Positions 50,290 to 64,000 of a stretch of 64,000 nt of DNA are shown one piece after another. Origin of the DNA: Citrifermentans bremense. GTDB lineage: Bacteria; Desulfobacterota; Desulfuromonadia; Geobacterales; Geobacteraceae. Made by a program: the position numbers and the translations under genes. The stretch is taken from assembly GCF_014218275.1 (NCBI RefSeq), contig NZ_AP023213.1:2892001-2956000 (forward strand). Direction: 5' to 3'. Positions within the stretch are counted from its first letter, which is position 1. Every line of letters starts with the position of its first letter. The notes under the pieces were generated by a model. It was not told the DNA's origin and did not search any database. It saw nothing but the letters and a program-made list of their open reading frames with translations.

Positions 50290-51222
50290 CTACTCCCTTG
50301 CCACGCCTGAGGCAAGAAGCTCCTTTCGCTGCTTCTCCAAAAGCTTCGCGCTTTCAACCTCGCCGTTCAGGCGATAGAGCTGCGCCAGCTTCTCCAGGGT
50401 GGCGGCGGCCTTCGCTGTGTCGCCGCCGGCGCGGCTCGCCTCCAGGGCGCGCAGATACCAGCCGATGGCCCCCTTTATGTCGCCGGAGGCGGCGGATACG
50501 CTCCCGAGCCCGGCGAGGTCGCCGGCGATCTTGCCGCTGAACCCCAACTCCTTGTCCAGGACAAGCGCCCCCAGGTAAGACTCCGATGCCTTGGCGCAGG
50601 CTCCCTGCAGCAGGTGGATCTCCCCCAGAAGCCGCAGAGAATTCGCTTCTTCGCCCCTAAGCTTCGCCTCCCGGTTCGCTGCCAGCGCCCTTTCCAAAAG
50701 CTCGCCTGCCTCGTCGGGAAAACCCTGCTTCAGTTTCAAGGCGGCCACGAGGTTGAGCCTGCGCCCCAGCGCCTCGCCTTGCTCGGCCGCCTCCGCCCGC
50801 TGCGCCCACTGGAGGGCGGCGGGAAGATCCCCGGCGGCCGCCAGAATCTTCGCTTTCTCGTAGTAGAGCTCCGACGCGAGGCCGGAACCGTCGGCCAGAA
50901 GCGACGCCCCCCGCTCGACGCTCAGCCGCGCCGACTGCAGATCGCCCCCCAGGCGCTGCGTCCTGGCGCTGTTCACCAGGGCGACGATCATCCCGTCGGT
51001 GTTGTCGACGGAAGTGTGCAGCCTGAGGGCCTCGGCGAATTCGGCCAAGGCCTTTCCCCTCTCCCCGCGCGCTTCCGCCTCCACGCCGCGCCGGTTGTGT
51101 TCCATCGCCTGCGCCCTGGGGACAGAGACCGGCTTGACCACGCCCCCCGCGCACCCGGCAAGGCAAAGCGCTACCGGTAAGAGCAAAGCGGCGAGCCTCG
51201 ATATCCTCCTGCCGCTAGTCAT
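50290..51222 (-). CDS. TPR-repeat lipoprotein
   Basis: A 310-residue lipoprotein. Signal peptide and lipobox end LCLAGC (Cys about 24). From about residue 40 to the end the chain is tetratricopeptide-like, with units such as AEARGERGKALAEFAEALRL, KILAAAGDLPAALQWAQRAE and GSVSAASGDIKGAIGWYLRAL. It may be a scaffold for the Mla-like complex. Its ATG 51222 overlaps the mlaD-like stop by eight bases, so it belongs to that operon. Confidence 0.8.
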   Translation of the reverse strand: MTSGRRISRLAALLLPVALCLAGCAGGVVKPVSVPRAQAMEHNRRGVEAEARGERGKALAEFAEALRLHTSVDNTDGMIVALVNSARTQRLGGDLQSARLSVERGASLLADGSGLASELYYEKAKILAAAGDLPAALQWAQRAEAAEQGEALGRRLNLVAALKLKQGFPDEAGELLERALAANREAKLRGEEANSLRLLGEIHLLQGACAKASESYLGALVLDKELGFSGKIAGDLAGLGSVSAASGDIKGAIGWYLRALEASRAGGDTAKAAATLEKLAQLYRLNGEVESAKLLEKQRKELLASGVARE

Positions 51223-52168
51223 GGCTGTCCCCCGGCACGAACTGCTTTTCCTTGGGGGCATCCACATAGCGGCTGATGGGCCACACCCCCTGCACGGCGC
51301 GGAGCACGCTTCCGGTCTCCTGCAGGGCGTCTTCCGATTTCTGCAATAGCGGCGGCACCTTGGGAAGCATGGTTTCCTCGGCGAGCTTCAGGTCGGCGCT
51401 CACCTTCTCCATGTTCTTGAGGGACCCCTCCGCGCTGGTCAGAAGCCCCGGCAACTTTTGCTCGACCATGACGAAGGAGGCGTTGGCCTTTTGCACCGAG
51501 TCGGAGGCCCCGTCCAGCACGGTCGAGAGCTTCCCGGAAACCGCCCCCACCTCCCGGTCTGCGTGCTGCACCAGCAGGTCGGCCCGCTGCCTGGTCCCTT
51601 CGAGGTTCTGGGCCAGCTGGTTGAAGTTCTTCATGGACTGCTTGATGTCGCCGTTGGGGTCGTTCAGGTAGCTGATGATCTCCCCCACCTCGCCGAGAAC
51701 CGGTTTCACCTTCTCGGCCAACTCGTCCGCCAGCTCGTCCAGCGCCTTGGTCTTCACGAAAGCCAGCGTATCGTTCTCCTGCAAAGGCGCCTGGCTCTGC
51801 TTGCCGACCGAAACCTCGATGATGGCGTCTCCTACGAGACCTTCCTTGACCAGCTTCGCCGTCGAATCGCGCCTGATCCACTTCTGGTATTTCTGATCGA
51901 TCAGGAGCACGATGTCGACCCTCGCCTCTTCGTTCAGGGAGATCGACTTCACCCTCCCGATCCTGAAGCCTGAGAGCTTGACCGGCATGCCGCGGGTGAA
52001 GCCGGTCCCCTTCTCGACGGTGAACCTTAGATGGTATTTCTTAGTAAAAAGGTCGTTTTCCTTCCCGATCAGGAGAATGACGACGGCGACGACGGCAAGC
52101 GCCACCGCGGCAAAGATTGCCACCTTCTTTTTCAGATGCTTAAAGCGCGGATCTTCTACCTTAACCAT
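51215..52168 (-). CDS. MlaD/MCE-domain lipid transport protein
   Basis: A 317-residue protein. One N-terminal membrane helix (about 15-35, VAIFAAVALAVVAVVILLIG), then an MCE domain (YHLRFTVEKGTGFTRGMPVKLSGFRIG ..., EGLVGDAIIEVS), then a long coiled coil to the C terminus. Longer than E. coli MlaD (183 residues) because of this coil. It should form the periplasmic ring of an Mla-like phospholipid transporter with the permease and ATPase encoded upstream. Confidence 0.88.
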   Translation of the reverse strand: MVKVEDPRFKHLKKKVAIFAAVALAVVAVVILLIGKENDLFTKKYHLRFTVEKGTGFTRGMPVKLSGFRIGRVKSISLNEEARVDIVLLIDQKYQKWIRRDSTAKLVKEGLVGDAIIEVSVGKQSQAPLQENDTLAFVKTKALDELADELAEKVKPVLGEVGEIISYLNDPNGDIKQSMKNFNQLAQNLEGTRQRADLLVQHADREVGAVSGKLSTVLDGASDSVQKANASFVMVEQKLPGLLTSAEGSLKNMEKVSADLKLAEETMLPKVPPLLQKSEDALQETGSVLRAVQGVWPISRYVDAPKEKQFVPGDSHD

Positions 52169-52820
52169 GCGCGGAACTCCCTTTCATCACTATGCGCGTA
52201 TCTACCTGCAGCTCCCTTAAGGCGTCCTCGTCCGCGGTCAGAAACAGCGAGGTCAGCTCGGGGCTCTCCCGGTGAAACTCCTCCAAAAGGGCCAGGACGG
52301 CGCTTCTTTGCCCCCCGCTCAGGCCGGTCAGGACCTCGTTGCAGATCACGAGCCGCGGGTTCAAAAGCATGGCGCGGGCGATCCCCACCTGCCTTCTGGC
52401 GTAGAGGGAGAGGTGCCCCGGCAGCTCCATCAGGTCGCCCTCGTACCCCACCCGCTTCAGTGCCGCCATCCCCCGCTCCTCGATCTCGCCGGCCGGGCAG
52501 ACGGAAAAGTATTCCAGCGGCAGCACGAGGTTCTCCCACACCTTGAGGTTCGAGATCAGGCCGCCGCTCGGATAGATCACGGCGACCTGGCGGCGCAGCG
52601 CCTGCAGCGCCTTATTCGACGCGCGCTCCAGCGGCTCACCCAGCACGGTGACGCTTCCCGACAGAGGCTTTGCCAGCGCCAGCATCAACCTCGCCTGCAG
52701 GTCGTTTTCCTCCTGCCGTGCAGTGATGGCCGCCGCCTTGCACCCTGCCGGTATCGAGAAGGAAACCGGCTGCAGCAGCTCACCGGCGACCACGTTTTCG
52801 AACTTAACAGCCTGTTCCAT
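52161..52820 (-). CDS. MlaF-like ABC protein with degenerate nucleotide-binding motifs
   Basis: A 219-residue protein at the mlaF place. The overall ABC fold is recognisable: FSIPAG, SGSVTVLGEPL, LRRQVAVIYPSGGLISNLKVWENLVLPL, RQVGIARAMLLNPRLVI. However the Walker A loop is replaced by AITARQEENDLQ with no G-x-G-K-S/T, the signature LSGGQ by LSLYARRQ, and Walker B reads RLVICNEV instead of LLLDEP. It therefore should not bind or hydrolyse ATP normally. The frame is intact and tightly coupled to both neighbours, so the change looks ancient, not random decay. It may act as a structural partner or with another ATPase. Confidence 0.83.
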   Translation of the reverse strand: MEQAVKFENVVAGELLQPVSFSIPAGCKAAAITARQEENDLQARLMLALAKPLSGSVTVLGEPLERASNKALQALRRQVAVIYPSGGLISNLKVWENLVLPLEYFSVCPAGEIEERGMAALKRVGYEGDLMELPGHLSLYARRQVGIARAMLLNPRLVICNEVLTGLSGGQRSAVLALLEEFHRESPELTSLFLTADEDALRELQVDTRIVMKGSSAHG

Positions 52821-52834
52821 GCCGGAAATAACCT

Positions 52835-53611
52835 CTACAAAAGGAAAAAGAGCGACACCACGCCGTCGATGATGAAGAGCAGGAAAAGACTCTGCATCAC
52901 GGCCCTGGTGGCGGCCTGCGGTATCTGGGTCACGCTGCGCCCCACCTTGAGCCCCTGGCGGCAGCAGATGGCGCCGATGAAGAGGCCGAAAAGGGCGCTT
53001 TTAACCAGCGAGACCGCGAGTTCCGTGATGGTCAGCACCGAAAACACCCCCTGCGAGTACTGCTCCCACGGCACGTGCCACCCTAGCGAGGCGACCAGGA
53101 ATCCCCCCAAAACGGCGGCGAACTCGAAGTAGATGGCGAGGACCAGCACGGCGCTGGCGACACCGAGGATGCGCGGCATGACCAGGTATACCGGGGCGGG
53201 GATCCCCAGCGACTCCAGGTAGTCGATCTCGCCTGCCACCTTCATCTGGGCCAGTTCGGCGGCGATGGCGGTGCCGCTTCTGGCGACCACGATGATCGCG
53301 GTCAGAAGGGGCGCCAGTTCCCGCACCACGATCCAGACGATCACCTTCCCGGTGAGGGTCTCGCTCCCTGACCCGGCGATGCTGACGATCTGGGTGATGA
53401 CCACGGTGCCGATCAAAAGCGCGGTGACCAGGATGATCTTGAAGGCCTCCAGCCCGGTGAAATAGACCTGGCGCAGGTAGACGCTCAATACCGGCCGAGC
53501 CCCCTGCCGCATCGCCGCGAGCGCATCGGTGCAGGCGCAGAGGATCAGCTGGACCAGGTCGTAGAGGTAGTCGATCAGGGCGAGCGGCTTGTCGAAAAGC
53601 GCCCCTGTCAT
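52835..53611 (-). CDS. MlaE-like permease
   Basis: A 258-residue inner membrane protein with five to six hydrophobic segments. The MlaE core is present: GLEAFKIILVTALLIGTVVITQ, VWIVVRELAPLLTAIIVVARSGTAIAAEL (EQ-loop-like coupling region), MKVAGEIDYLESLGIPAPVYLV, and LVKSALFGLFIGAICCRQGL. It forms the membrane part of the lipid transporter. It starts 27 bp after the phosphodiesterase gene stop and is followed by the ATPase-like gene after 14 bp. Confidence 0.92.
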   Translation of the reverse strand: MTGALFDKPLALIDYLYDLVQLILCACTDALAAMRQGARPVLSVYLRQVYFTGLEAFKIILVTALLIGTVVITQIVSIAGSGSETLTGKVIVWIVVRELAPLLTAIIVVARSGTAIAAELAQMKVAGEIDYLESLGIPAPVYLVMPRILGVASAVLVLAIYFEFAAVLGGFLVASLGWHVPWEQYSQGVFSVLTITELAVSLVKSALFGLFIGAICCRQGLKVGRSVTQIPQAATRAVMQSLFLLFIIDGVVSLFFLL

Positions 53612-53638: not shown

Positions 53639-54397
53639 CTAAAGGTCATAGACGTTCCCGCCGCGCAACAGTTCGACGCCCGGAAGACGCAGCGCCTCCA
53701 GTTCGTCCTTGATCCGGTCGTAGTACTGCGGTTTCAGGTGGGTGATCAGGATGCGGGACGGGAGCTTCGGGAGTTTCGCCAGCTCTATGCCCAGGAGCGC
53801 CGGCGTCAGGTGCCCGGTGAGGAGCGCTATCTCCTCCATCTCGCTCGGGAAGGAGACCTCGACGATCAGCGCCGCCAGTTCCCCGGCCAGCTCCCAGATG
53901 CGCGCGGTGGGGCCGGTGTCGCCGGTGTAGAGAAGGGAAGCCCCTCCCCTGCTCACCCGGTAACCGACGGCCGGGACTGGGTGATTCACGGGGCAGGCGA
54001 GCACCTGGTAGTCGCCGACCTGGAAGGGCGCCTCGACCACGACCGGCTGGTAGCGCAGCACCGGCGCCTCAGGGGTGGGGATGCGGGTGAAGTCGGGCCA
54101 GATCACGCCGTTCATCAGGTGGCTGCCGAGGGCCGCGAGGACTTCGGTCGTGCCGCGGACCTGGACGGTCCGGGAGATTCCGGAAACGACTATGTTGTCG
54201 GCCAGAAGCGGGATGCCGCGGATATGGTCCAGGTGCGAATGGGTCACCAGGATGTCCTTGATGCGCCACTGCTCCTCCTCGCTGAGCACGGCCCCCACGG
54301 TCCCGGCGTCGAGGAGCAAAGAGTCGTCGATCAGAAAAGCCGATGGGCTGTGTCCGGGGAATTCGGCGCCTGAACATCCTAATACGCGTAATCTCAC
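53639..54397 (-). CDS. Class-II-type cyclic nucleotide phosphodiesterase (MBL fold)
   Basis: A 252-residue metallo-beta-lactamase fold hydrolase, start MRLRVLGCSGAEFPGHSPSAFL. The metal motif is VTHSHLDHIRGIPLLADN, which fits the H-x-H-L-D-H signature of class II cAMP phosphodiesterases. Further ligands are PVNHPVPAVGY (His), LLYTGDTG (Asp) and ILITHLKPQY (His). Cytoplasmic. It leads the Mla-like operon, and the next gene upstream is a CHASE2 nucleotide cyclase, which supports a cyclic nucleotide as substrate. A different MBL substrate cannot be excluded. Confidence 0.78.
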   Translation of the reverse strand: MRLRVLGCSGAEFPGHSPSAFLIDDSLLLDAGTVGAVLSEEEQWRIKDILVTHSHLDHIRGIPLLADNIVVSGISRTVQVRGTTEVLAALGSHLMNGVIWPDFTRIPTPEAPVLRYQPVVVEAPFQVGDYQVLACPVNHPVPAVGYRVSRGGASLLYTGDTGPTARIWELAGELAALIVEVSFPSEMEEIALLTGHLTPALLGIELAKLPKLPSRILITHLKPQYYDRIKDELEALRLPGVELLRGGNVYDL

Positions 54398-54526
54398 AGG
54401 TTTCCTCGCTTATCCTGCAATGGTAGTCACTGCCATTCCGGGTGCCGCACCATACCACGTCCCACCATGGATTTCTCCATAATTCCAAGGCCTATGCCTT
54501 CTCTCCCCGTGCGCCCCCCACCCTGA

Positions 54527-54588
54527 CCCTCCCCCTGGAGGGGAGGGAACTCGTGACATCCCGCTCTCCTCCCCCTGGAGGGGGGAGG
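54527..54588. repeat. Two palindromic CCTCCCCCTGGAGGGGAGG repeats
   Basis: Copies at 54527-54547 and 54566-54588, each a near-perfect palindrome, in the spacer between the cyclase stop and the phosphodiesterase start. A similar GC-rich hairpin is at 57834-57857. Likely REP-type elements; may also end transcription. Confidence 0.65.
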
Positions 54589-54610
54589 CCGGGAGGGGGG
54601 CGTCCAGCTA

Positions 54611-56695
54611 CTACTTCGTCTGCGCCACGTACACGCCGTCCCACCCTTCCGGGGGGGGCACTGCGGCGAACTCGCGGCAGCGCGAGAGATAAAGCTCCGA
54701 CACCTTGTCGCCCGTGGCCGCGATGGCGGCGAAACCTTCGCAGGCAGAGGCGAACTCGCCGGCCCGGTAAAGCGCAAGGGAGGCCTCGAACTGCGCCTGG
54801 AACTTTAGCTCCCCGGTCAGGAGCTGGTACACGGCGACCGGCTCGTGCTTCCCTTTGACCCGCACCAGGTCCACCTTGCGAAACCGGAAGCCGTCGCCTG
54901 CATGGGCCTTGGTCGCCTCGCTCACGAGGACCTGGACCCCGTAGAACTTGGTGAGCCCTTCAAGGCGGGCGGAGAGGTTGACCGTATCCCCGATGGCGGT
55001 GTAGTCGAAGCGGATGTCGGCTCCCATGTTGCCGACGACCGCCTCGCCTGTGCTGATGCCGATGCCGATGGAGATCTGCGGCACCCCCCGCTTGGCGAAC
55101 TCCTGGTTCAAGAGCTCAAGCCGCTCCAGCATCTTCACCGCGCTGCGGCAGGCATGCCCGGCATGGTCGGGAACGTCGAGCGGCGCGTTGTAGATCGCCA
55201 TTACCGCATCGCCGATGAACTTGTCCAGCGTCCCCTTCTCCTCCATCACGATCCGGGTCATGGGGGAGAGGTAGTCGTTCAAAAGCCGCACCAGCTCCTC
55301 AGGAGAAAGCGATTCGGAGAGGGTGGTGAAGCCCCTGATGTCGGAGAAGAGGATGCTCACCTCGCGCTTCTCCCCCCCCAATTTCAGCAGGTCCGGGTTC
55401 TTGACGATCTTGTCGACGAGGTCGGGAGAGACGTAGCTGCCGAACGCCTTCTTCAGGTACCTCCCCCGCTTCTCGATGACGAGGTTTCGGTACGCCTCGG
55501 CCCCGACGTAGGTGAATATCACCGGAGAGAGCGGGTAGATGAAACTCAGGTCCAGCGAGGCGTGTTTGAAAAGGAGGTAGTTGAGGACCAGGTACCCGCC
55601 GCTTAGAAGGGAGAAATAGGCGAGCCCGACCATGGTGCGGGGGGTGGTGTTGAGCAGCAGGGCCAAAAGCAGCGGCAACAGGAACATGCACCCCATCTCC
55701 AGCCCCAGCGTCCTTCCGTCGCGGATCAGGAAACGGTGGTCCAGCGCGTTTGCCGCGACGGTGGCGTGGATCTCGACCCCGGGTAAGGCCGGGTCGAAGG
55801 GGGTGGCGCGCATGTCGTAGATGCCGGTCTCGGTCACGCCGACAAATACCAGCTTCCCCTTGAGCGCCTGCGCCGGGACCTTCTTCTCGATCACATCCAC
55901 CGCGGAGATGGTGGGAAAACTCGCTGTCCCCCCGTAGTAGTTGAGAGCCAGGCGCCCCTGCTCGTTCACCGACAGCGGGAGGTCCCCCACCGCCACCGAA
56001 CGGACCCCGAACGGCGCCACGTCGACCAGGACCGGCTTGTCGAGGTAGCGGCTGAGCCCCAAAAGCCCCAGCGACGGGTAGATGTCGCCGTCGTAAAGGA
56101 GCAAAAGCGGCGCCTTCCTGAACAGCCCGTCGTAATCGGGAATCTGGTTGAAAAAGCCGAACTCGCGGGCGCCGCCCGCCACAGAGGGGAGATTGGCGTC
56201 CAGGCTCGCAAATTCGGTGAGCGGCACCGAAGTGACCCCCTCCTCCAGTTTCAAGAACTTCACCTTGGCGTTAGAGAGTTGCTCCAGGGCGAGCGGGTCG
56301 ATCTGCTGCATCTCGTTGCGGAAGAAGTACCCCATGACGAGGTTCGGAGAAGACGCCACCGCCCGCGCCAGGGTCCGGTCCGGGACCTCCCCCTGGGGCT
56401 CGGAGAAGACCATGTCGAGCGCGATCACCTTGGCGCCATAGGCGGAGAGGTTCTCTATCAGCCGGGCCGTGACCTCGCGGGACCAAGGCCAGCGCCCCAC
56501 CTCCTTCACGCTCTTGTTGTCCACGGCGACCACCGCCACCTCCGGCCCCGGCGCCACCGCTCCCCGCACCCGAAACCTCGCGTCGCGCAGCCGCAGGTCG
56601 ACCTGCTCGATGAAGGCGAACTGGCTGCGGTAAAGCCCCAGGGAGAAAAGGGACGCCAAGAGCGCTATGGCGAGGAAGATGCGGGTTCGCTTCAT
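54611..56695 (-). CDS. CHASE2 domain adenylate/guanylate cyclase
   Basis: A 694-residue membrane cyclase. An N-terminal helix (residues 6-22) is followed by a large extracytoplasmic CHASE2 domain to about 320 (AVVAVDNKSVKEVGRWPWSR, IALDMVFSEP, FVGVTETGIYDMRATPF, LPGVEIHATVAANAL). Three membrane helices follow (about 325-395), then a class III cyclase domain with the metal Asp pair in VSILFSDIRGFTTLSESL and FIGDAVMAIYNAP, and FDYTAIGDTVNLSARLEG. The last 70 residues look TPR-like. ATG 56695 overlaps the FecR stop by one base. It should sense envelope conditions and make cAMP or cGMP; the substrate is not certain. Confidence 0.9.
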   Translation of the reverse strand: MKRTRIFLAIALLASLFSLGLYRSQFAFIEQVDLRLRDARFRVRGAVAPGPEVAVVAVDNKSVKEVGRWPWSREVTARLIENLSAYGAKVIALDMVFSEPQGEVPDRTLARAVASSPNLVMGYFFRNEMQQIDPLALEQLSNAKVKFLKLEEGVTSVPLTEFASLDANLPSVAGGAREFGFFNQIPDYDGLFRKAPLLLLYDGDIYPSLGLLGLSRYLDKPVLVDVAPFGVRSVAVGDLPLSVNEQGRLALNYYGGTASFPTISAVDVIEKKVPAQALKGKLVFVGVTETGIYDMRATPFDPALPGVEIHATVAANALDHRFLIRDGRTLGLEMGCMFLLPLLLALLLNTTPRTMVGLAYFSLLSGGYLVLNYLLFKHASLDLSFIYPLSPVIFTYVGAEAYRNLVIEKRGRYLKKAFGSYVSPDLVDKIVKNPDLLKLGGEKREVSILFSDIRGFTTLSESLSPEELVRLLNDYLSPMTRIVMEEKGTLDKFIGDAVMAIYNAPLDVPDHAGHACRSAVKMLERLELLNQEFAKRGVPQISIGIGISTGEAVVGNMGADIRFDYTAIGDTVNLSARLEGLTKFYGVQVLVSEATKAHAGDGFRFRKVDLVRVKGKHEPVAVYQLLTGELKFQAQFEASLALYRAGEFASACEGFAAIAATGDKVSELYLSRCREFAAVPPPEGWDGVYVAQTK

Positions 56696-57732
56696 CACTG
56701 CTCCAGCATTTTCAAGAGCGTTTCGACGCTGCTTCTATGCTTTCCCTCTGGGTACTCGTTCAGGTACTGCTTGAAGCGGGCCTTGGCCAGGTCGGTCCGT
56801 CCCATGTCGTAGAGGGTCTGTCCCGCGCTGTAGAGGGCCGTCTCCATCTGGGGGATCTTGTTGTACTCCTCGAGGACCAGGAGGTACTCCGCGAGCGCCG
56901 CCTCGGGGTGATCCAGGAAGCGGCCGTAGACGCTGCCGCGCTCGAGCCTCGCATCCGCGCGGACGTCGGCCAGCGTGGTCAGGTCGAGGGCGATCTGGAA
57001 CACCTGCAGCGCCTCGTCGTGGCGCCCGGAATCGGCCAGGTAGTGACCGTGGTTGATGTTCCAGCGGGCGATGATGTTGGCGAGGTTGTCTGCTTCGCCC
57101 CACTGCGCGGGGGGAAGCGAGCCGGTGGCGGCCTCGAAGTCGAGCTTCGCCTTGGCCAATGGCGTTCCCTGGTCGACGCGCACGGAAGCGGCCGGTTTGG
57201 CTCCCCTGGTGGTCTGCGTCATGGTGCCGGGCGGAAGCGGCTCGCTCCCGCCCGAGCTACCCGAGACCGTGACGGTCCCTTCGTTGCCGAAGAAGATGTT
57301 GGCGGGCCCCTGGGTCAGCATGAGGAACTCGGTCCCCTTGACCCCTGCGACCGCGGTGCTGCTTTTCACCTTGATGTCGGTCTGCTGTCCCGCGAGCTTC
57401 ATCACCGACGCGCGGAGTTTGCCCTGGGTGAGGCCGAAGGAGCCGGTCTTCCTGGTCTTCGAGACCAGGTAGCTCTGGATCTCCAGCTCCGAGTTGTTGG
57501 CGATGGTGAAGCGGCTGTTGTCGGAGAGGGTCAGTTCGATCCAGCCGTCCTTGCCGGTCTTGAGCCAGTCTCCCTCGTTGATCACCTGCTTTGCCGCCAG
57601 CGGGCGGTAGCTTCCGCCCGGGCCCGACTTGTAGAGGACCGTCCCCTTGGCCTTGGTCACGCCACCGGCCGGTGCGGCTATCGCCAGCGCCGGCAGAAGC
57701 AGCATCAGGCAGCACAAAATGATGGTACGCAT
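56695..57732 (-). CDS. Exported FecR-domain protein with TPR tail
   Basis: A 345-residue periplasmic protein. Signal peptide MRTIILCCLMLLLPALAIAAPA. A FecR domain at about 25-150 (EGDWLKTGKDGWIELTLSDNSRFTIANNSEL, SSTAVAGVKGTEFLM, FGNEGTVTVSG), then a TPR-like part from about 200 (NHGHYLADSGRHDEALQVFQ, AEYLLVLEEYNKIPQMETALY, KARFKQYLNEYPEGKH). No membrane anchor and no sigma factor nearby, so this is the stand-alone FecR type found beside CHASE2 cyclases. Start at ATG 57732. Cotranscribed with the cyclase. Confidence 0.87.
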   Translation of the reverse strand: MRTIILCCLMLLLPALAIAAPAGGVTKAKGTVLYKSGPGGSYRPLAAKQVINEGDWLKTGKDGWIELTLSDNSRFTIANNSELEIQSYLVSKTRKTGSFGLTQGKLRASVMKLAGQQTDIKVKSSTAVAGVKGTEFLMLTQGPANIFFGNEGTVTVSGSSGGSEPLPPGTMTQTTRGAKPAASVRVDQGTPLAKAKLDFEAATGSLPPAQWGEADNLANIIARWNINHGHYLADSGRHDEALQVFQIALDLTTLADVRADARLERGSVYGRFLDHPEAALAEYLLVLEEYNKIPQMETALYSAGQTLYDMGRTDLAKARFKQYLNEYPEGKHRSSVETLLKMLEQ

Positions 57733-57833
57733 AGGTATCCCTCCGACATCGAATGGAAATCGATCTTTTCTACATTTTCTGAAGGTTCTTCCGGGGTTTC
57801 CGGTGGGTAAAGCCCCCTCGTTGGCACCCCTAA

Positions 57834-57857
57834 CCCCCTCCCGCAAGGGGAGGGGGG
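57834..57857. repeat. GC-rich hairpin repeat
   Basis: CCCCCTCCC-GCAA-GGGGAGGGGG in the 200-bp spacer between the FecR gene and the small lipoprotein gene. REP-like; the rest of the spacer holds no gene. Confidence 0.6.
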
Positions 57858-57932
57858 ATGGATCAACTTTCCGCGCCCTTAAGCGCGAAGGTGGCTTGTC
57901 CACCGTAGCGCCTAGCGCGAAGGTGGAAAAGC

Positions 57933-58148
57933 CTAGAGCGAATCGAGCCTCTCCTGGGCCTGCTTGGCGAGCTTGCTCTTGGGGTACTTGGTGACGATCT
58001 CCTTGTAGAGCTGCTTGGCGTGCTCGATGTTGTTCTGGTTTTCCTCCAACTGTGCGGTCTGGAACAGCTCCTTGCTCTTGTCCTCGCCGGAGCTGCACGC
58101 AGTCGCCAGCGCCAGGAACAACATCATCAACAGTGCGGATTTCTTCAT
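57933..58148 (-). CDS. Small TPR-like lipoprotein
   Basis: A 71-residue protein. Signal peptide with lipobox ATAC (Cys18), then SSGEDKSKELFQTAQLEENQ and AKQLYKEIVTKYPKSKLAKQAQERL, which is one TPR-like helical hairpin of the YbgF/Tol-Pal type. It would sit at the periplasmic face of a membrane. It lies between the caspase gene (47 bp upstream on its strand) and the FecR gene. Confidence 0.75.
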   Translation of the reverse strand: MKKSALLMMLFLALATACSSGEDKSKELFQTAQLEENQNNIEHAKQLYKEIVTKYPKSKLAKQAQERLDSL

Positions 58149-58195
58149 CTATCTCTCCTTTTGTTGGGACCCCTCATGGGGTCGGGAATATGCAG

Positions 58196-61075
58196 CTAGG
58201 GGGCCTGTTTTTTCACCGCCAGCGGAAAATCCGGAACGGTCCTGGGCTTCGCCGTGGTCGGGGTCTGCTTTCCGCCGGTCAACTCCTGCACCCTTTCGGA
58301 AAGCCACAGGTCGAGGCTCGCCACGGTGATGCGCCCCTTTCCGGTGTAGTCGGCCTTGCCGGAGATCCCCTCCACCAGCGCCTTGGTGAAGGCGCCGTTG
58401 CCCCAGGCGGGGTCCTCGATGGAGTACTGGCGCCCGGTGGAGGAGGCGAAAACGACCACGCCGTTCTCGGCGCTGGAGAGGTCGTTGACCACGGCGTTGA
58501 CCTCGCTCCCCCCCTTCTTGCCGCCCATGACGTCGCCCGCATGGCAGGTGTCTACGAAGAGCACCGCCTTGCCGGGAAGCGACATCAGGGCTTTCCTGAT
58601 CTCGGAGAAGACGACGGCACTTTCCCCGAGCTTTCCCGGCTTGCCGTCGACGGGGAGGAAGTAGTAGGCGCCGCCTGCGTCGGTGACGCCGTGGCCGGAA
58701 AGAAAGACGATCGCGGTGTCACGCTCACGCGCCTCGCCCGAAAGCCATTTGAGCCCGTCCAGCACGGCCTGGCGGTTTGCCGCCGCATCGGTCAGGAGCT
58801 TTACCGAGACATCGCCGTAGAGCCCACCCTTCTGGAGCTGCATGAGGGAGGCGAAGTCCTTGGCGTCCTTGGCAGCGAAGTCGAGGGCGAGTTCCGGGTC
58901 GGGGTAGCCCCCGATGCCGATGGAGAGGATGAAAAGCCGCGGCTTGAGCGATATCACCTCGGGCTCGGGTTCCTGCGCCGTGCGCGACACACTTATCGTT
59001 GCCGGTTCGCTGGCTGCGTGCCTGTTCTCGGCGATGACGGCGACCTCGCTTTCCCCGGCAGGGAGCGCAAAGGTGACTTTGCGGCGCTCGCCCTGGTTGA
59101 GCGGCAGGCCGGTCCCCTGCCACTTGAAGGAGACGGGGCGCCCGTTCACCAGGACCTTCACACCGGTCACGGCCTCGCCGGAGGGGGAGCGCACGGTGAA
59201 GTCGACGGTCACCTCCCCCTGTTCGACCACCCCCTTGTCCTGGGGCGAGGTGATGCTCACCACCGGCGGGAGGAGCGACAGGAGCGTTTCCTCCCCAGTG
59301 CCCTTGCCGGCTTCCGCATCATCCCACTTGGCTAAGAGCCGGTTGATGACGTCGGGGCGGCAAAAGACCAAGCGGAAGCGGGAGACGGGGAAGAAGTCGG
59401 CGCCTTGCGCGGTGTCGCTGTTCAGGTGCCACCCCGCAAGCTCCTCCCCCCCCACGGAAGCGTCGTAGTACCCCGACGGCGTCCAGAGCACCCAGCGCTT
59501 TTTGTCCGCGTGCGGAAAGAAGGCGAGAAGTTCCTTGCCGTCGCTCATGCGGTACCAGCGGATGGTCCCGTCCCCTAAGGCGGCGACGGCCACCTTGCCG
59601 TTGGCGGACACGTTCACCTGCCAGACGATGGCAGGCGCCGCGCGGTGCCAGCGCTCCTTCCCCAGCCGGTCGAAGCAGCGCAGGTTCCAGTCGGTGCCGA
59701 GCAAAAAGAGCTTGCGGTCGTGACCGAGGGCGAGGCTGCGCGACGCCTCGTGCGGCTCCATCCGGAGCGGCAGGCCGTTCAAAAGCGGCGTGGTCCCGTT
59801 GCGCCATCCGGTCACCCGCAGCTCGGGCGTTTCCAATAGCGCACCGTAAAGCCCGTCGTCGTCCCCCCCCAGCCTGAGGGATCGGTCCCCCAGGGCGAAA
59901 ACGGCGCCCGGCTTGGCGCCGGGGCCATAGCCGAATCCGATGGAGGAGCCGTCGGCAGAGACCAGGAGGTTGCCGCCGCGATGGTCGACGATGCCGGGGG
60001 CGCGGTGGAACGAGGGGGCCTTACCGGGTTCGGTCACACCGATCTCAGGCCCGGCTGCCGCATAGGCCAGGGCCCCGCCCGGGAGAGAGGCGAGCTGCAT
60101 CACGTTTCCGTCTGCTATGGGAAGGTCGGAGAATTCTCCCTTCCCCCCCTCTTCCCAGCGGCGCAGCAGGTACTTGTCACCCGACCTGTGGCTCCCCGCG
60201 GCGTAGAGCGTCGTGCCGTCTGCGGACCAGGCGACGCTGAAGAGGCTGCCGCTGTCGGCGCCGCCTGGAGCCGTGTAGAGGGGGGTCAGGTCACTCCCGG
60301 AGAGGACGGCGACCTTTCGGGAATCGTCGCAGCCGACGGCAAGCTTCCCGCCGTCGGCGGTGAAGGCTATCGAGTAGGGGAGCTCACCGTTGGGGGCTTT
60401 CTCCTTGGCCAAGAGCTGCATCCTGTCGTCATAAAGGCGCACGAACCCGTCCCAGGAAGCCGTAGCCAGCCTCCCCGCGGCGTCGAATTCGAGGCCGTAG
60501 CAATCGTTGCCGTAAGCGCGGTCCGCCCCGGCCAGTTTCCAGTCGGAGACGCGCAGCTGGTAGACCCCCTTGCCGGCGCCGAGCGCCACGGCGATGCGCC
60601 TGCCGTCGGGAGAGTACCTAAGCGCCTTGATCACGTTGGGGAAGCCGTCCAGCCGCTTCACCACCTTTCCGGTGGCGCGGCTATAGAAGTAGACGCTCCC
60701 CTTTTTCTGCCAATCCCACCCGGTCCAGCCGCCGCAGGCGATGGTGCCGCCATCGGGGGAGATGGCGACCGCGAATAGCTTCCCTTCGTTCCCCGGGCCG
60801 ATGTGAGGGCGCAGGATGCGAACCGGGGCGGGGTCGGAACTCCCCTCCACCTTCGCGGCGAGATCCCAGACCCGCACCGTCTTGTCCTCTGATGCTGTCG
60901 CCATCCAGTGCCCTGCCGCGTCGATCGAGATGGCCTTCACCATCGCCGTGTGCATACCGGTCTCGATGCGGAGCATCGGTTCGCGCGGCGGGGCCGCGGC
61001 AAAGGCCAGGGTTGCCGCCATCTGCCAGGCCAGACAGAGCGAAAAAAGCGCGGATAGGAACCTTCGGCTCATCAT
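58196..61075 (-). CDS. Exported WD40-caspase (C14) protein
   Basis: A 959-residue protein. Signal peptide MMSRRFLSALFSLCLAWQMAATLAFAAAP. Residues about 40-560 form WD40 beta-propellers (AMVKAISIDAAGHWMATASEDKTVRVWDL, LFAVAISPDGGTIACGGWTG). Residues about 610-690 are an Ig-like domain. Residues about 700-950 are a caspase/metacaspase domain with the catalytic dyad His795 in VFLSGHGV and Cys844 in FVDTCHAGD. GGAG lies four bases upstream of ATG 61075. Most bacterial WD40-caspases are cytoplasmic; a secretion signal and its place beside a CHASE2-FecR pair are unusual. Likely a periplasmic protease that responds to envelope state. Confidence 0.85.
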   Translation of the reverse strand: MMSRRFLSALFSLCLAWQMAATLAFAAAPPREPMLRIETGMHTAMVKAISIDAAGHWMATASEDKTVRVWDLAAKVEGSSDPAPVRILRPHIGPGNEGKLFAVAISPDGGTIACGGWTGWDWQKKGSVYFYSRATGKVVKRLDGFPNVIKALRYSPDGRRIAVALGAGKGVYQLRVSDWKLAGADRAYGNDCYGLEFDAAGRLATASWDGFVRLYDDRMQLLAKEKAPNGELPYSIAFTADGGKLAVGCDDSRKVAVLSGSDLTPLYTAPGGADSGSLFSVAWSADGTTLYAAGSHRSGDKYLLRRWEEGGKGEFSDLPIADGNVMQLASLPGGALAYAAAGPEIGVTEPGKAPSFHRAPGIVDHRGGNLLVSADGSSIGFGYGPGAKPGAVFALGDRSLRLGGDDDGLYGALLETPELRVTGWRNGTTPLLNGLPLRMEPHEASRSLALGHDRKLFLLGTDWNLRCFDRLGKERWHRAAPAIVWQVNVSANGKVAVAALGDGTIRWYRMSDGKELLAFFPHADKKRWVLWTPSGYYDASVGGEELAGWHLNSDTAQGADFFPVSRFRLVFCRPDVINRLLAKWDDAEAGKGTGEETLLSLLPPVVSITSPQDKGVVEQGEVTVDFTVRSPSGEAVTGVKVLVNGRPVSFKWQGTGLPLNQGERRKVTFALPAGESEVAVIAENRHAASEPATISVSRTAQEPEPEVISLKPRLFILSIGIGGYPDPELALDFAAKDAKDFASLMQLQKGGLYGDVSVKLLTDAAANRQAVLDGLKWLSGEARERDTAIVFLSGHGVTDAGGAYYFLPVDGKPGKLGESAVVFSEIRKALMSLPGKAVLFVDTCHAGDVMGGKKGGSEVNAVVNDLSSAENGVVVFASSTGRQYSIEDPAWGNGAFTKALVEGISGKADYTGKGRITVASLDLWLSERVQELTGGKQTPTTAKPRTVPDFPLAVKKQAP

Positions 61076-61116
61076 GTATCTCCAGTCTCTTTGCTGCATA
61101 ACCGGGGGCTCGCGCC

Positions 61117-63147
61117 TCAGCGCGGCACCCGCCCCGTCACCTTGAAGACGAAGTCGTAGGTCAGGATATCCTCCCACTGCCAGCCGCGCGCGGTGGAGCG
61201 GGTGTCGTCGGGCCCGCTGTAGGGCTTGCCCGGGGTGTAGTACCAGTTGAGTATCGCCTCGCCGGAGCGGCGCAGCACCACCCAGTATTTCCCCGGCGGG
61301 AAGGTTTCGGCATCGGGCGCGACGGCGAAATCGAGCCAGCCGTAGCCGGGAAGGCGTTTGACGTTCTCCAGGTAGACCGGCCGGGAGCGGACCCCGCGGG
61401 TCAACCCGGGCTTCCCATCTTCGTCGGCCACGATGTCGAGGTACACGGTGCCGTCGCCGCCGAACTTCCTCATGGCGAGCGAGACCTGTTCCAACCTGAG
61501 CGGCCTATCCAGCACAAAGGCCTGGGCGTAGACGCTGGTGGAGGTGGCGTATTCCGCCGTTTCCCGCTCCAGGGAAGCCTCGCCGCGATTGCCGCTGTTG
61601 GTGTAGAAGTCGAGGTTGGCAGGGAAGTGCGTGTTGCCGAAGATCACCCTTCCGGCTGCGTCAGGCTCGACCGGCGGCGGCCCGCTCGGTTTTTTCTTCT
61701 TCGGCTTCGGCGCCGGTTTAGCAGGTGCCGGGGCCGGTTCCTTTTCCAGAGGCTTCGGCTCAAGCTTCGGGAGCGGCGCGGGCTGCGGCTCGGGTTTCGG
61801 GAGCTCGCTCTTCGCCTCTTTGACAGGCGCCTTTGGTGCCGGCTTGGGCGGAAGTTTCGGCTTCGCCACAGGCTTCGACGGGAGTTTCGGTTCCGGCTTC
61901 GGTTCCGGCTTCGGTTCCAGTTTCGGTTCCGGCTTCGGTTCCAGTTTTGGTTCGGGTTTAGGTTCCGGTTTAGGTTCAGGCCTGGGCGTCTGCTTACCCT
62001 CGCGCTTCGGTTCCGGCTTCGGCAAGGACGGCAGTGAGGGGACGGGGACCGGGAGCGCCACAGGCACGGGGAGCGGTGCAGGCGCCGTGAGCACAGCGAC
62101 CTCCGGGGCCGCGGCGATCATCTCGAAGCTCGCCATGTAGCCGCGCGGCTCGCTCCCGGAGCCTTTCAGGTTCAGGTCGACGAGATCGCGGCTGTAGTTG
62201 CTGCTGATCGAGGCGCTATAGCGCGGCAGCACCGGGGCCGCCCGCCAGGAGGTTCCGATCTCGCCGCATTCCAGACCATGGGCGTATTTTATGTGGCGCG
62301 TGGAGGTGAACTGCTTGGACTGCTGCGGGTCGCAGGGAAGCCAGCCGAGCCCGGGGAACCAGACCTCGATCCAGGCGTGCAGCCCCTCCCCCATCCCCTG
62401 CACCAGCGAAGAGCCGCGGTTGTCCAGCGGGATCTTCCACTTGTCCTTGAGGGTCAGCCCTACGGCGACGCGCGCGGGGATCCCGGAGGCGCGCAACAGG
62501 GCGCAGGCCAGGTGCGCGTAGTTCTGGCAGTTGCCGGTGCCGGTGGAGAGGCCGTAGAGGGCGTCGTAGGACTTGGGAGGGGTCTCGTAGCGGATATGGT
62601 CGGTGACGAAGTTGATGACGGCATCCACCGCTTCGCCCTGGTTGGCGGCGTCGGCGGTAAGCTCCGCCGCCTTTTTCACCACTTCGGGGTCCGTCGCCTG
62701 CACCTGTTTGGTCGGTTTCAGGAAGAGCCGGACGTCCTCCGGGACCTGGCCGACAGGAAAGGGCGCGCGCGTCTTGACCGGCGCTAGCGTAGCGTCTATG
62801 GCGGTGGTGTAGACGATGGTGGCGCGAGCGTCTCCCGCGAGCTTGCGCCAGGTGACCACCTTGTAGCTGTTGCCGTAATCGTCGGTCTCGTCCTTGACGG
62901 AGTCGGGCTGAGGGTCGAACTTGAGGCGATGGTCGGTGAGGCGCTGGTTGAGGCTCGCCACCTTGATCGCCGCCGGTAGCGGGAAGCGGTAGATGAGCTC
63001 GGAGAGCTTTTCCTCGACGCCGAAGGTGACCTGCTGGGTCACCGTGACCTCGCTGGAGATCTTCCCCGCGACGACGAGCGTCTTAGCCCGGCAGGGGACC
63101 GCCGTAACCAGGATCAAAAGCGCCAACAACAGTCCTTTTTGCAGCAT
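61117..63147 (-). CDS. Exported transglutaminase-like protein with PEPK linker
   Basis: A 676-residue protein. Signal peptide [22 protein letters not shown] beta-rich part to about residue 140 precedes the transglutaminase core: [20 protein letters not shown] with catalytic Cys, [19 protein letters not shown] with His and Asp. Residues about 370-500 are a Pro/Lys/Glu repeat ([10 protein letters not shown]). The C-terminal 170 residues are a beta domain ([32 protein letters not shown]). The linker could span peptidoglycan. ATG 63147 has GGAG nearby. The caspase gene starts 41 bp downstream, so they form an operon. Confidence 0.85.
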
Positions 63148-63293
63148 GAGCTCTCCTACCTGAATCTCGCGCATAGCTTAAACAGCTACAGGGATGCGGG
63201 GATCGGGGACAACGACAGAGCCGCCATCATCCCCTACCCCCTTCATCCCTGTTTTACGCGTTGTCATCACGGCCTGAAACCGCCGTTGCCGCT

Positions 63294-64000
63294 CTACTTC
63301 AGTACGAAGGCCACCTTGGCGCCGGCCAGGAAGTTCCCTTTCTGGTTGGCGGAGAAGATGGTTACCGCGTCCTCGTCGGTGACCTGCAGGTCGGCGGCGC
63401 TGACGGTGCCGCTTGCCTTAACGACCAGCGGGTTCTTGATGCCGCGCGCCTCGAGTGCGGCTTTAGCTTTCTCCACGCTGTTGGTGTACTCGCCGCAACC
63501 CTGCTCGACCAGGACCTTCTGGCTCACCTTGGACGGGTCGTAGAGGAGCTCGTTCTTGGCGCTGAAGATGCGGTTGATCAGTGCCGGCCTGAAGTTCTGC
63601 TCGGTGGCGTCGACGATCAGACCGTCGTAGCTCTCCGGCAGGCGCTCGACCTTCGCCTTGAACTTCGGCGCGGGCTTGCCGTCCACCTCGGTCAGGCTGC
63701 TTTTAAGCTCCGGGTCCTTGAACATCTTCTCGTACATGGAGGAGGCGAAACCTTTGGGGCCGTGCATGCCGACCTTGACGATGGCGACCGCGGTGTCCGT
63801 CTCCTTGCTGTACTCCTGCACCACGATCTGGACCCCTTTGACGGTCCCGGTCACGGCGCTCCTGATCAGGTCGCTTTCGAGCACCCCGTCCTTCACCAGG
63901 GTATCGCCGACAAGGGCGAAGCCGTTCAGGTACTCGGCAACGGCTCGCTGTGCGGTGACGACGGCGGCGCGTTTCGCCCCCATCTCCCTCTGCGCCTGGC
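63294..64000 (-). CDS. LPP20-like protein (partial at window end)
   Basis: At least 235 residues, continuing beyond the right edge (the frame before MGAKRAAVV reads QAQRE without a stop). AKRAAVVTAQRAVAEYLNGF followed by AVTGTVKGVQIVVQEYSKETDTAVAIVKVGM is the pattern of the LPP20 family, whose members are mostly surface or periplasmic lipoproteins. The C-terminal part (SAADLQVTDEDAVTIFSANQ, GNFLAGAKVAFVLK) has no function I can name. The next gene downstream, the transglutaminase, starts 146 bp on. Confidence 0.68.
   Translation of the reverse strand, partial: QAQREMGAKRAAVVTAQRAVAEYLNGFALVGDTLVKDGVLESDLIRSAVTGTVKGVQIVVQEYSKETDTAVAIVKVGMHGPKGFASSMYEKMFKDPELKSSLTEVDGKPAPKFKAKVERLPESYDGLIVDATEQNFRPALINRIFSAKNELLYDPSKVSQKVLVEQGCGEYTNSVEKAKAALEARGIKNPLVVKASGTVSAADLQVTDEDAVTIFSANQKGNFLAGAKVAFVLK

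Follow-up and report, generated by a model that had tools for sequence, protein, structure and literature searches.

Organization of the locus

The window analysed here is a stretch of 64,000 nucleotides from the complete, 4.46-Mb genome of Citrifermentans bremense (contig NZ_AP023213.1, positions 2,892,001 to 2,956,000). It contains a block of minus-strand genes for a CHASE2 receptor cyclase, a FecR protein, a metallo-β-lactamase (MBL) fold protein and a series of exported, lipoprotein and membrane components (Table 1). We favour, with modest confidence, the reading that the cyclase, FecR, MBL and envelope genes constitute an envelope-facing cyclic AMP (cAMP) module.

An earlier note on this DNA had described five consecutive genes, from the transglutaminase to the cyclase, followed by the MBL gene. 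All are present where it placed them, and Pfam agrees. The cyclase ATG overlaps the FecR stop codon in the sequence TGATG, also as described. Upstream of the FecR and MBL genes are intergenic gaps of some 200 bp, filled by GC-rich, repeat-like stretches (57827-57853 and ~54500-54600). Scans of the window for sigma-70 promoters and terminators gave nothing beyond chance, Rfam gave no match, including in the GC-rich repeat gaps, and the tRNA scan found none. The signal peptides of the transglutaminase, caspase and FecR proteins and the lipoboxes of two lipoproteins were read directly from the sequence.

Table 1. Genes of the block, numbered from the first letter of the 64-kb window
Product	Position	Strand	Basis
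Transglutaminase-like protein, exported	61117-63174	-	Pfam Transglut_core 2e-27
WD40-caspase (C14), exported	58196-61075	-	Pfam Peptidase_C14 2e-14 + WD40
Small lipoprotein, 71 aa, one TPR (BamD/CpoB-like)	57933-58148	-	Lipobox LATAC; weak TPR_6 / OM_YfiO matches
FecR-TPR protein, exported; stand-alone FecR domain + CpoB-like TPR	56695-57732	-	Pfam FecR 9e-12 + TPR
CHASE2 sensor + class III (IIIb-type) adenylyl cyclase	54611-56696	-	Pfam CHASE2 6e-62, Guanylate_cyc 2e-26
MBL-fold protein, cytoplasmic; probable class II cyclic-nucleotide phosphodiesterase	53639-54397	-	Pfam PDEase_II 4e-13; Lactamase_B_2 3e-15
MlaE-type permease	52835-53611	-	Pfam MlaE 3e-57 (194 bits)
MlaF-like pseudo-ATPase	52161-52820	-	Catalytic motifs lost
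MlaD/MCE protein	51215-52168	-	Pfam MlaD/MCE 8e-14 (52 bits)
TPR lipoprotein	50290-51267	-	Pfam TPR_12
313-aa exported protein, no known domain	63294-64000, past window end (genome 2955294-2956235)	-	Adjoins transglutaminase upstream

The FecR gene pairs with the CHASE2 cyclase gene

In the cyclase, the metal-binding residues Asp452 and Asp496, together with Asn573 and Arg577, are intact and are kept in aligned relatives. Lys492 and Thr566 form what we take to be the signature of a class IIIb-type adenylyl cyclase. Class III cyclases number only two in the genome, and each is a CHASE2 protein.

The FecR protein carries a signal peptide directly before its FecR domain and has no cytoplasmic or anti-sigma part. 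Its structure model (pLDDT 90) consists of a FecR-type β domain followed by TPRs. The model matches the folds of a putative anti-sigma FecR-type protein and the PupR periplasmic domain, and its TPR part is YbgF/CpoB-like. Cell-surface signalling of the FecI-FecR-FecA type was rejected, given the missing anti-sigma part and the lack of an adjacent sigma or FecA/TonB receptor gene.

A search of 117 Geobacterales genomes found an orthologue of the cyclase (at least 48% identity) in 38. FecR is adjacent or close to the cyclase in 31 of the 38 orthologue loci, which come from three families and were read to at most 20 kb. Counted by presence, FecR accompanies the cyclase in 35/38 genomes and occurs in 0/79 genomes without it. 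The association extends beyond the order: FecR is near CHASE2 in 18 of 40 loci from other Desulfobacterota families, where its CHASE2 neighbours include proteins in which no cyclase domain scores. In Burkholderia and Pseudomonas, a FecR gene stands beside a CHASE2 histidine kinase (PMC5192318). Because the pairing is phylum-wide and is known with CHASE2 kinases as well, FecR looks like a partner of CHASE2 whatever the output domain.

In other Desulfobacterota, a triad is repeated that joins FecR and an OmpA-like lipoprotein to a CHASE2 protein in which no cyclase domain was detected (L152, L160 and L168). A gene for a GAF-GspE-type ATPase lies divergently beside the FecR-CHASE2 pair at many Geobacterales loci (L044, L046-L049, L051-L054, L056-L058, L060, L063, L067 and L074-L076), and in the window's genome the paralogous CHASE2 cyclase gene has one next to it too.

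The MBL protein is a probable phosphodiesterase

The MBL protein displays the features of class II phosphodiesterases (PDEs), namely the HxHxDH metal motif and the MBL fold. These are shared with yeast PDE1, YhfI and Apyc1 (PMC9117128), and PDE1 has the H-N-IWPD segment in common with it as well; identity to the known class II PDEs is about 20%. HSHLDH and H93-N96-IWPD are invariant across 33 homologues. The top PDB sequence match is yeast PDE1, which shares the H..N..IWPD segment. The best fold match is Bacillus subtilis YhfI, with RNase Z, PDE1 and Apyc1 also near.

Pfam PDEase_II scores 49.8 bits (cut-off 23.7), but Lactamase_B_2 scores higher. Neither PDB sequence scores alone nor the fold search firmly separates a PDE from RNase Z. 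HSHLDH alone would not make that division either, and the IWPD motif and the distribution among genomes were therefore considered in addition.

The distribution follows class III cyclases. Across the 117 genomes, the MBL is present in 57 of 64 with a class III cyclase match and in 2 of 53 without. The same contrast holds inside the window's genus (9/9 versus 2/10) and in the other genera of the family (9/10 versus 0/19), and none of the 19 genomes having CHASE2 without a listed cyclase match contains the MBL. It lies within 10 kb of a cyclase or CHASE2 match in 19 genomes, where random placement expects 0.65, and is also near cyclase or CHASE2 genes of other subfamilies (G001, G059, G060 and G087). 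Relative to the cyclase orthologue of the block, the MBL occurs in 34/38 versus 25/79 genomes. Motif, fold and distribution make it a probable class II cyclic-nucleotide PDE, in line with the earlier note.

Alternatively, the MBL might not hydrolyse cAMP and might instead serve the MlaE/MCE complex, its substrate being a lipid or an RNA, for instance. The MBL gene directly precedes MlaE in many genomes, and the NCBIfam models for RNase Z and for cyclic-nucleotide PDE both score far under their cut-offs (47.9 versus 400 for the PDE model). However, 22 genomes contain the MBL without this MlaE, on which ground membership of an Mla-type operon alone was rejected, and the MBL follows class III cyclases inside single genera. 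The PDE1-like motif is invariant, and the best fold match, YhfI, is reported to prefer cAMP/cGMP (PMC9117128). We regard this alternative as improbable.

Exported proteins co-occur with the cyclase

The transglutaminase has a Cys216-His266-Asp282 triad, which is kept in nearly all of 13 homologues, followed by a Pro/Lys/Glu-rich linker and a C-terminal choice-of-anchor-R-like domain. In the caspase, the His795/Cys844 dyad is intact by alignment, exactly as the earlier note had read it. The dyad is conserved in 5/5 homologues, and the Pfam C14 score is 54 bits (cut-off 21.4). The 71-residue protein described there as a TPR lipoprotein does possess a lipobox, LATAC, but only a single weak TPR that falls under the Pfam cut-off. 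It is recognised by sequence in one relative only (G085, L033/L038).

These genes were counted in the 38 genomes with and the 79 without a cyclase orthologue. The transglutaminase occurs in 31/38 versus 4/79, mostly not adjacent to the cyclase, the caspase in 13/38 versus 2/79, and the MlaE-type permease in 28/38 versus 11/79. Shuffling within genera takes away between-genus differences, and after it all of these genes, FecR and the MBL included, stay above chance; for FecR, the transglutaminase, the caspase and MlaE, the observed value was reached in 0-3 of 20,000 shuffles. Within the window's genus, 4 species carry the whole set of cyclase, FecR, transglutaminase, caspase and MlaE, and 15 have none of it, apart from one stray caspase.

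A further reading is an anti-phage or cell-death system made up of a Pycsar-like cyclase and a caspase effector. The two proteins do score against the Pycsar-cyclase and caspase models of PADLOC, but the matches are at domain level. The CHASE2 receptor is an outside sensor, Lys492 and Thr566 are of adenylyl type, and no TIR or membrane Pycsar effector is adjacent. With its signal peptide, the caspase would be exported from the cytoplasm, the site of cAMP synthesis, and it is missing from 25 of the 38 cyclase genomes. Pycsar/CBASS defence was rejected on these grounds and is very improbable.

An Mla-like set contains a dead ATPase

The genes downstream of the MBL gene resemble MlaFEDB in comprising an MlaE-type permease, an MCE protein and an ABC-like subunit. 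Pfam supports MlaE and MCE, and to that extent the Mla operon of the earlier note stands; both score below their NCBIfam cut-offs. Unlike that of MlaFEDB, the ABC-like subunit lacks the motifs for ATP binding and hydrolysis. Walker A (GxxxxGK[ST]) is absent in 16/16 homologues from three families (L033, L034, L035, L092-L094, L173 and L176-L183). The homologues that were read have no LSGGQ, a degraded Walker B and no switch histidine. A segment around GGL(I/V), past the Q-loop position, is conserved and presumably contacts the permease. With a pseudo-enzyme as its own ABC-like subunit, the set does not amount to a standard Mla transporter, and lipid transport, which the note had proposed as an output, is doubtful and speculative.

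The permease diverges from the canonical copy of the genome (G000:C1:1717248). The canonical MlaE-MlaD locus (L172, genome 1712000-1724000) likewise has no adjoining ABC ATPase gene. In Geobacterales, the MlaE-F-D set usually ends with a TPR lipoprotein gene, which follows MlaD in L091-L094, L173, L176-L179, L181 and L183. At family f4 loci with MBL-MlaE-Fbp, tblastn found no MlaF or MlaD; other f4 genomes carry MlaE-F-D-TPR.

Modules of the block recombine across relatives

The five-gene order, whose conservation in related genomes the earlier note had proposed as a check, recurs only in G073, G083, G085 and, with an insertion, G075. In G083, the MBL-Mla part is not beside the five-gene block. 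Outside close relatives, the modules of the block split and recombine. Recombined orders include transglutaminase-MBL-MlaE-MlaD-TPR-FecR (L091), transglutaminase-313-aa protein-SLH lipoprotein-TPR-MlaD-MlaF-MlaE (L173), FecR-SLH lipoprotein-313-aa protein-transglutaminase (L175) and 313-aa protein-caspase-transglutaminase (L184). Within 10 kb of the cyclase orthologue, the MBL is found in 15 of the 38 genomes, the transglutaminase in 13 and the caspase in 6, where random placement expects 0.1-0.2. Presence and absence are more telling than contiguity, and recombination of modules is stronger evidence than co-inheritance.

The block also continues upstream, past the end that the note had given it. 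Beyond the window, an SLH-domain lipoprotein and an exported M48-type peptidase are encoded upstream of the 313-aa gene. Since modules recombine with these genes elsewhere, the block is taken to reach to the 313-aa protein, the SLH lipoprotein and the peptidase. L073, L173, L174 and L175 show the same grouping of 313-aa protein, SLH lipoprotein and transglutaminase. At the G022 locus (L189), an M48-type relative is next to caspase, transglutaminase, cyclase and FecR. Both peptidases are exported and have TPRs; they are encoded at L077:3120-4844, just past the window, and at L189:9207-10889, in a distant family. Some 11 kb from fecR, on the upstream side of the block and beyond the window, is an ECF-like sigma gene with weak sigma r2/r4 matches (L077:6584-7495, genome 2961083-2961994).

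Alternative explanations

Several points weigh against a single module. The full five-gene order is confined to close relatives, four genomes of the window's genus (G000, G073, G085 and G075) plus G083. A single transcript is not guaranteed, because the GC-rich gaps precede FecR and MBL. The genomes compared are not independent of one another, a dependence that shuffling within genera takes away only in part. Because one block may be gained or lost whole, co-inheritance does not prove a common function. In other Desulfobacterota, the MBL shows only a weak link to CHASE2 (41/111 versus 17/82, p=0.017), in a comparison that covered CHASE2 alone. Finally, the Sinorhizobium meliloti FecR gene SMc02177 is a target of Clr-cAMP and dispensable for signal perception (PMC5498481), so a sensory role of FecR is unproven.

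The restricted contiguity would fit a smaller functional unit of FecR, cyclase and MBL PDE, with the transglutaminase, caspase and Mla-type genes as passengers of a shared block. On the cyclase tree, the link to the transglutaminase requires 7 changes, compared with 4 for the MBL and only 3 for FecR, in keeping with passengers; the caspase requires 2. However, the transglutaminase follows the cyclase among genomes although it mostly does not adjoin it, and in G057, G066 and G080, which have the cyclase at another place, FecR and the transglutaminase are 2-4 kb apart. We consider passengers a real but rather unlikely explanation.

Somewhat less unlikely, though still short of an even chance, is that FecR and the exported proteins are outputs controlled by cAMP, the cyclase sensing alone and a CRP-type factor turning on an envelope-remodelling set. 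The S. meliloti FecR gene, which lies by the CHASE2-cyclase gene cyaD1 and clr and is activated by Clr-cAMP, is a precedent, and the window's genome encodes four cyclic-nucleotide-binding proteins. On the other hand, the FecR gene precedes and overlaps the cyclase gene, and the pairing of FecR with non-cyclase CHASE2 proteins and CHASE2 histidine kinases fits a CHASE2 partner better than a cAMP target. This explanation overlaps the envelope-facing module, which leaves direction open; FecR and the transglutaminase as cyclase input or as cAMP-controlled output are rated about equal.

Comparison with known systems

The CHASE2-cyclase core is of an already known kind, because clusters of CHASE2-cyclase, FecR, TPR and PDE genes were reported earlier from Campylobacterota, where a single cAMP pathway was proposed for them (PMC9239204). 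The same four kinds of gene, counting the probable PDE, are clustered here, with CHASE2 fused to a class III cyclase, an exported FecR-TPR protein and TPR lipoproteins beside it. The probable Geobacterales PDE is of MBL type, and the comparison concerns the presence of a PDE. Here the TPR is fused to FecR, and the Geobacterales block adds the transglutaminase, caspase, lipoproteins and MlaE/MCE with a dead ATPase.

Other systems share parts of the core. The S. meliloti cluster CyaD1-SMc02177-SMc02178-Clr also has a CHASE2 cyclase with nearby FecR and exported-protein genes, but it includes a CRP-type regulator, its FecR is a cAMP target, and MBL, transglutaminase and MlaE-type genes are unmentioned (PMC5498481). 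The BiofilmReg operon of Burkholderia and Pseudomonas likewise places an exported FecR-domain protein beside a CHASE2 membrane sensor, but there CHASE2 drives a histidine kinase and the FecR protein bears LysM (PMC5192318). In magnetotactic bacteria, the TPR-protein gene mtxA is followed by a CHASE2 cyclase gene; a FecR domain is unmentioned in that paper (PMC4439547). No report was found in the open-access literature of an association of transglutaminase, caspase, SLH lipoprotein or pseudo-Mla genes with a CHASE2-cyclase core.

A proposed envelope-facing cAMP module

In the module that we favour, the membrane CHASE2 receptor cyclase would make cAMP in the cytoplasm. The exported FecR-TPR protein would be its periplasmic partner, perhaps in physical contact with CHASE2, and the neighbouring soluble MBL protein would hydrolyse the cAMP. 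The envelope machinery watched or controlled would comprise the transglutaminase, the 313-aa exported protein, the SLH and TPR lipoproteins, in some species the WD40-caspase, and the MlaE/MCE membrane complex with its dead ATPase subunit. The one system of the earlier note is partly supported: it gains from the FecR-CHASE2 pairing and from the co-occurrence of transglutaminase, caspase and MlaE beyond genus membership, and loses where lipid transport is concerned.

A more specific and rather doubtful version is a Geobacterales envelope surveillance system. Exported cross-linking and protease-type proteins, with SLH and TPR lipoproteins, would report through FecR to the CHASE2 cyclase, and a new subfamily of MBL phosphodiesterases would set the level of cAMP. 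MlaE/MCE with the pseudo-ATPase would be a sensor or passive lipid conduit, not an ABC transporter.

Separately puzzling is the dead ATPase conserved within an Mla-like complex, which leaves a lipid machine of ABC type unable to use ATP through its own subunit. For tracing the signal and wiring of CHASE2 receptors, the module offers specific candidate partners: FecR, an MBL phosphodiesterase and an exported transglutaminase, the last as input or output. In bacteria that rely on their envelope for electron transfer, it would also link that envelope to cAMP.

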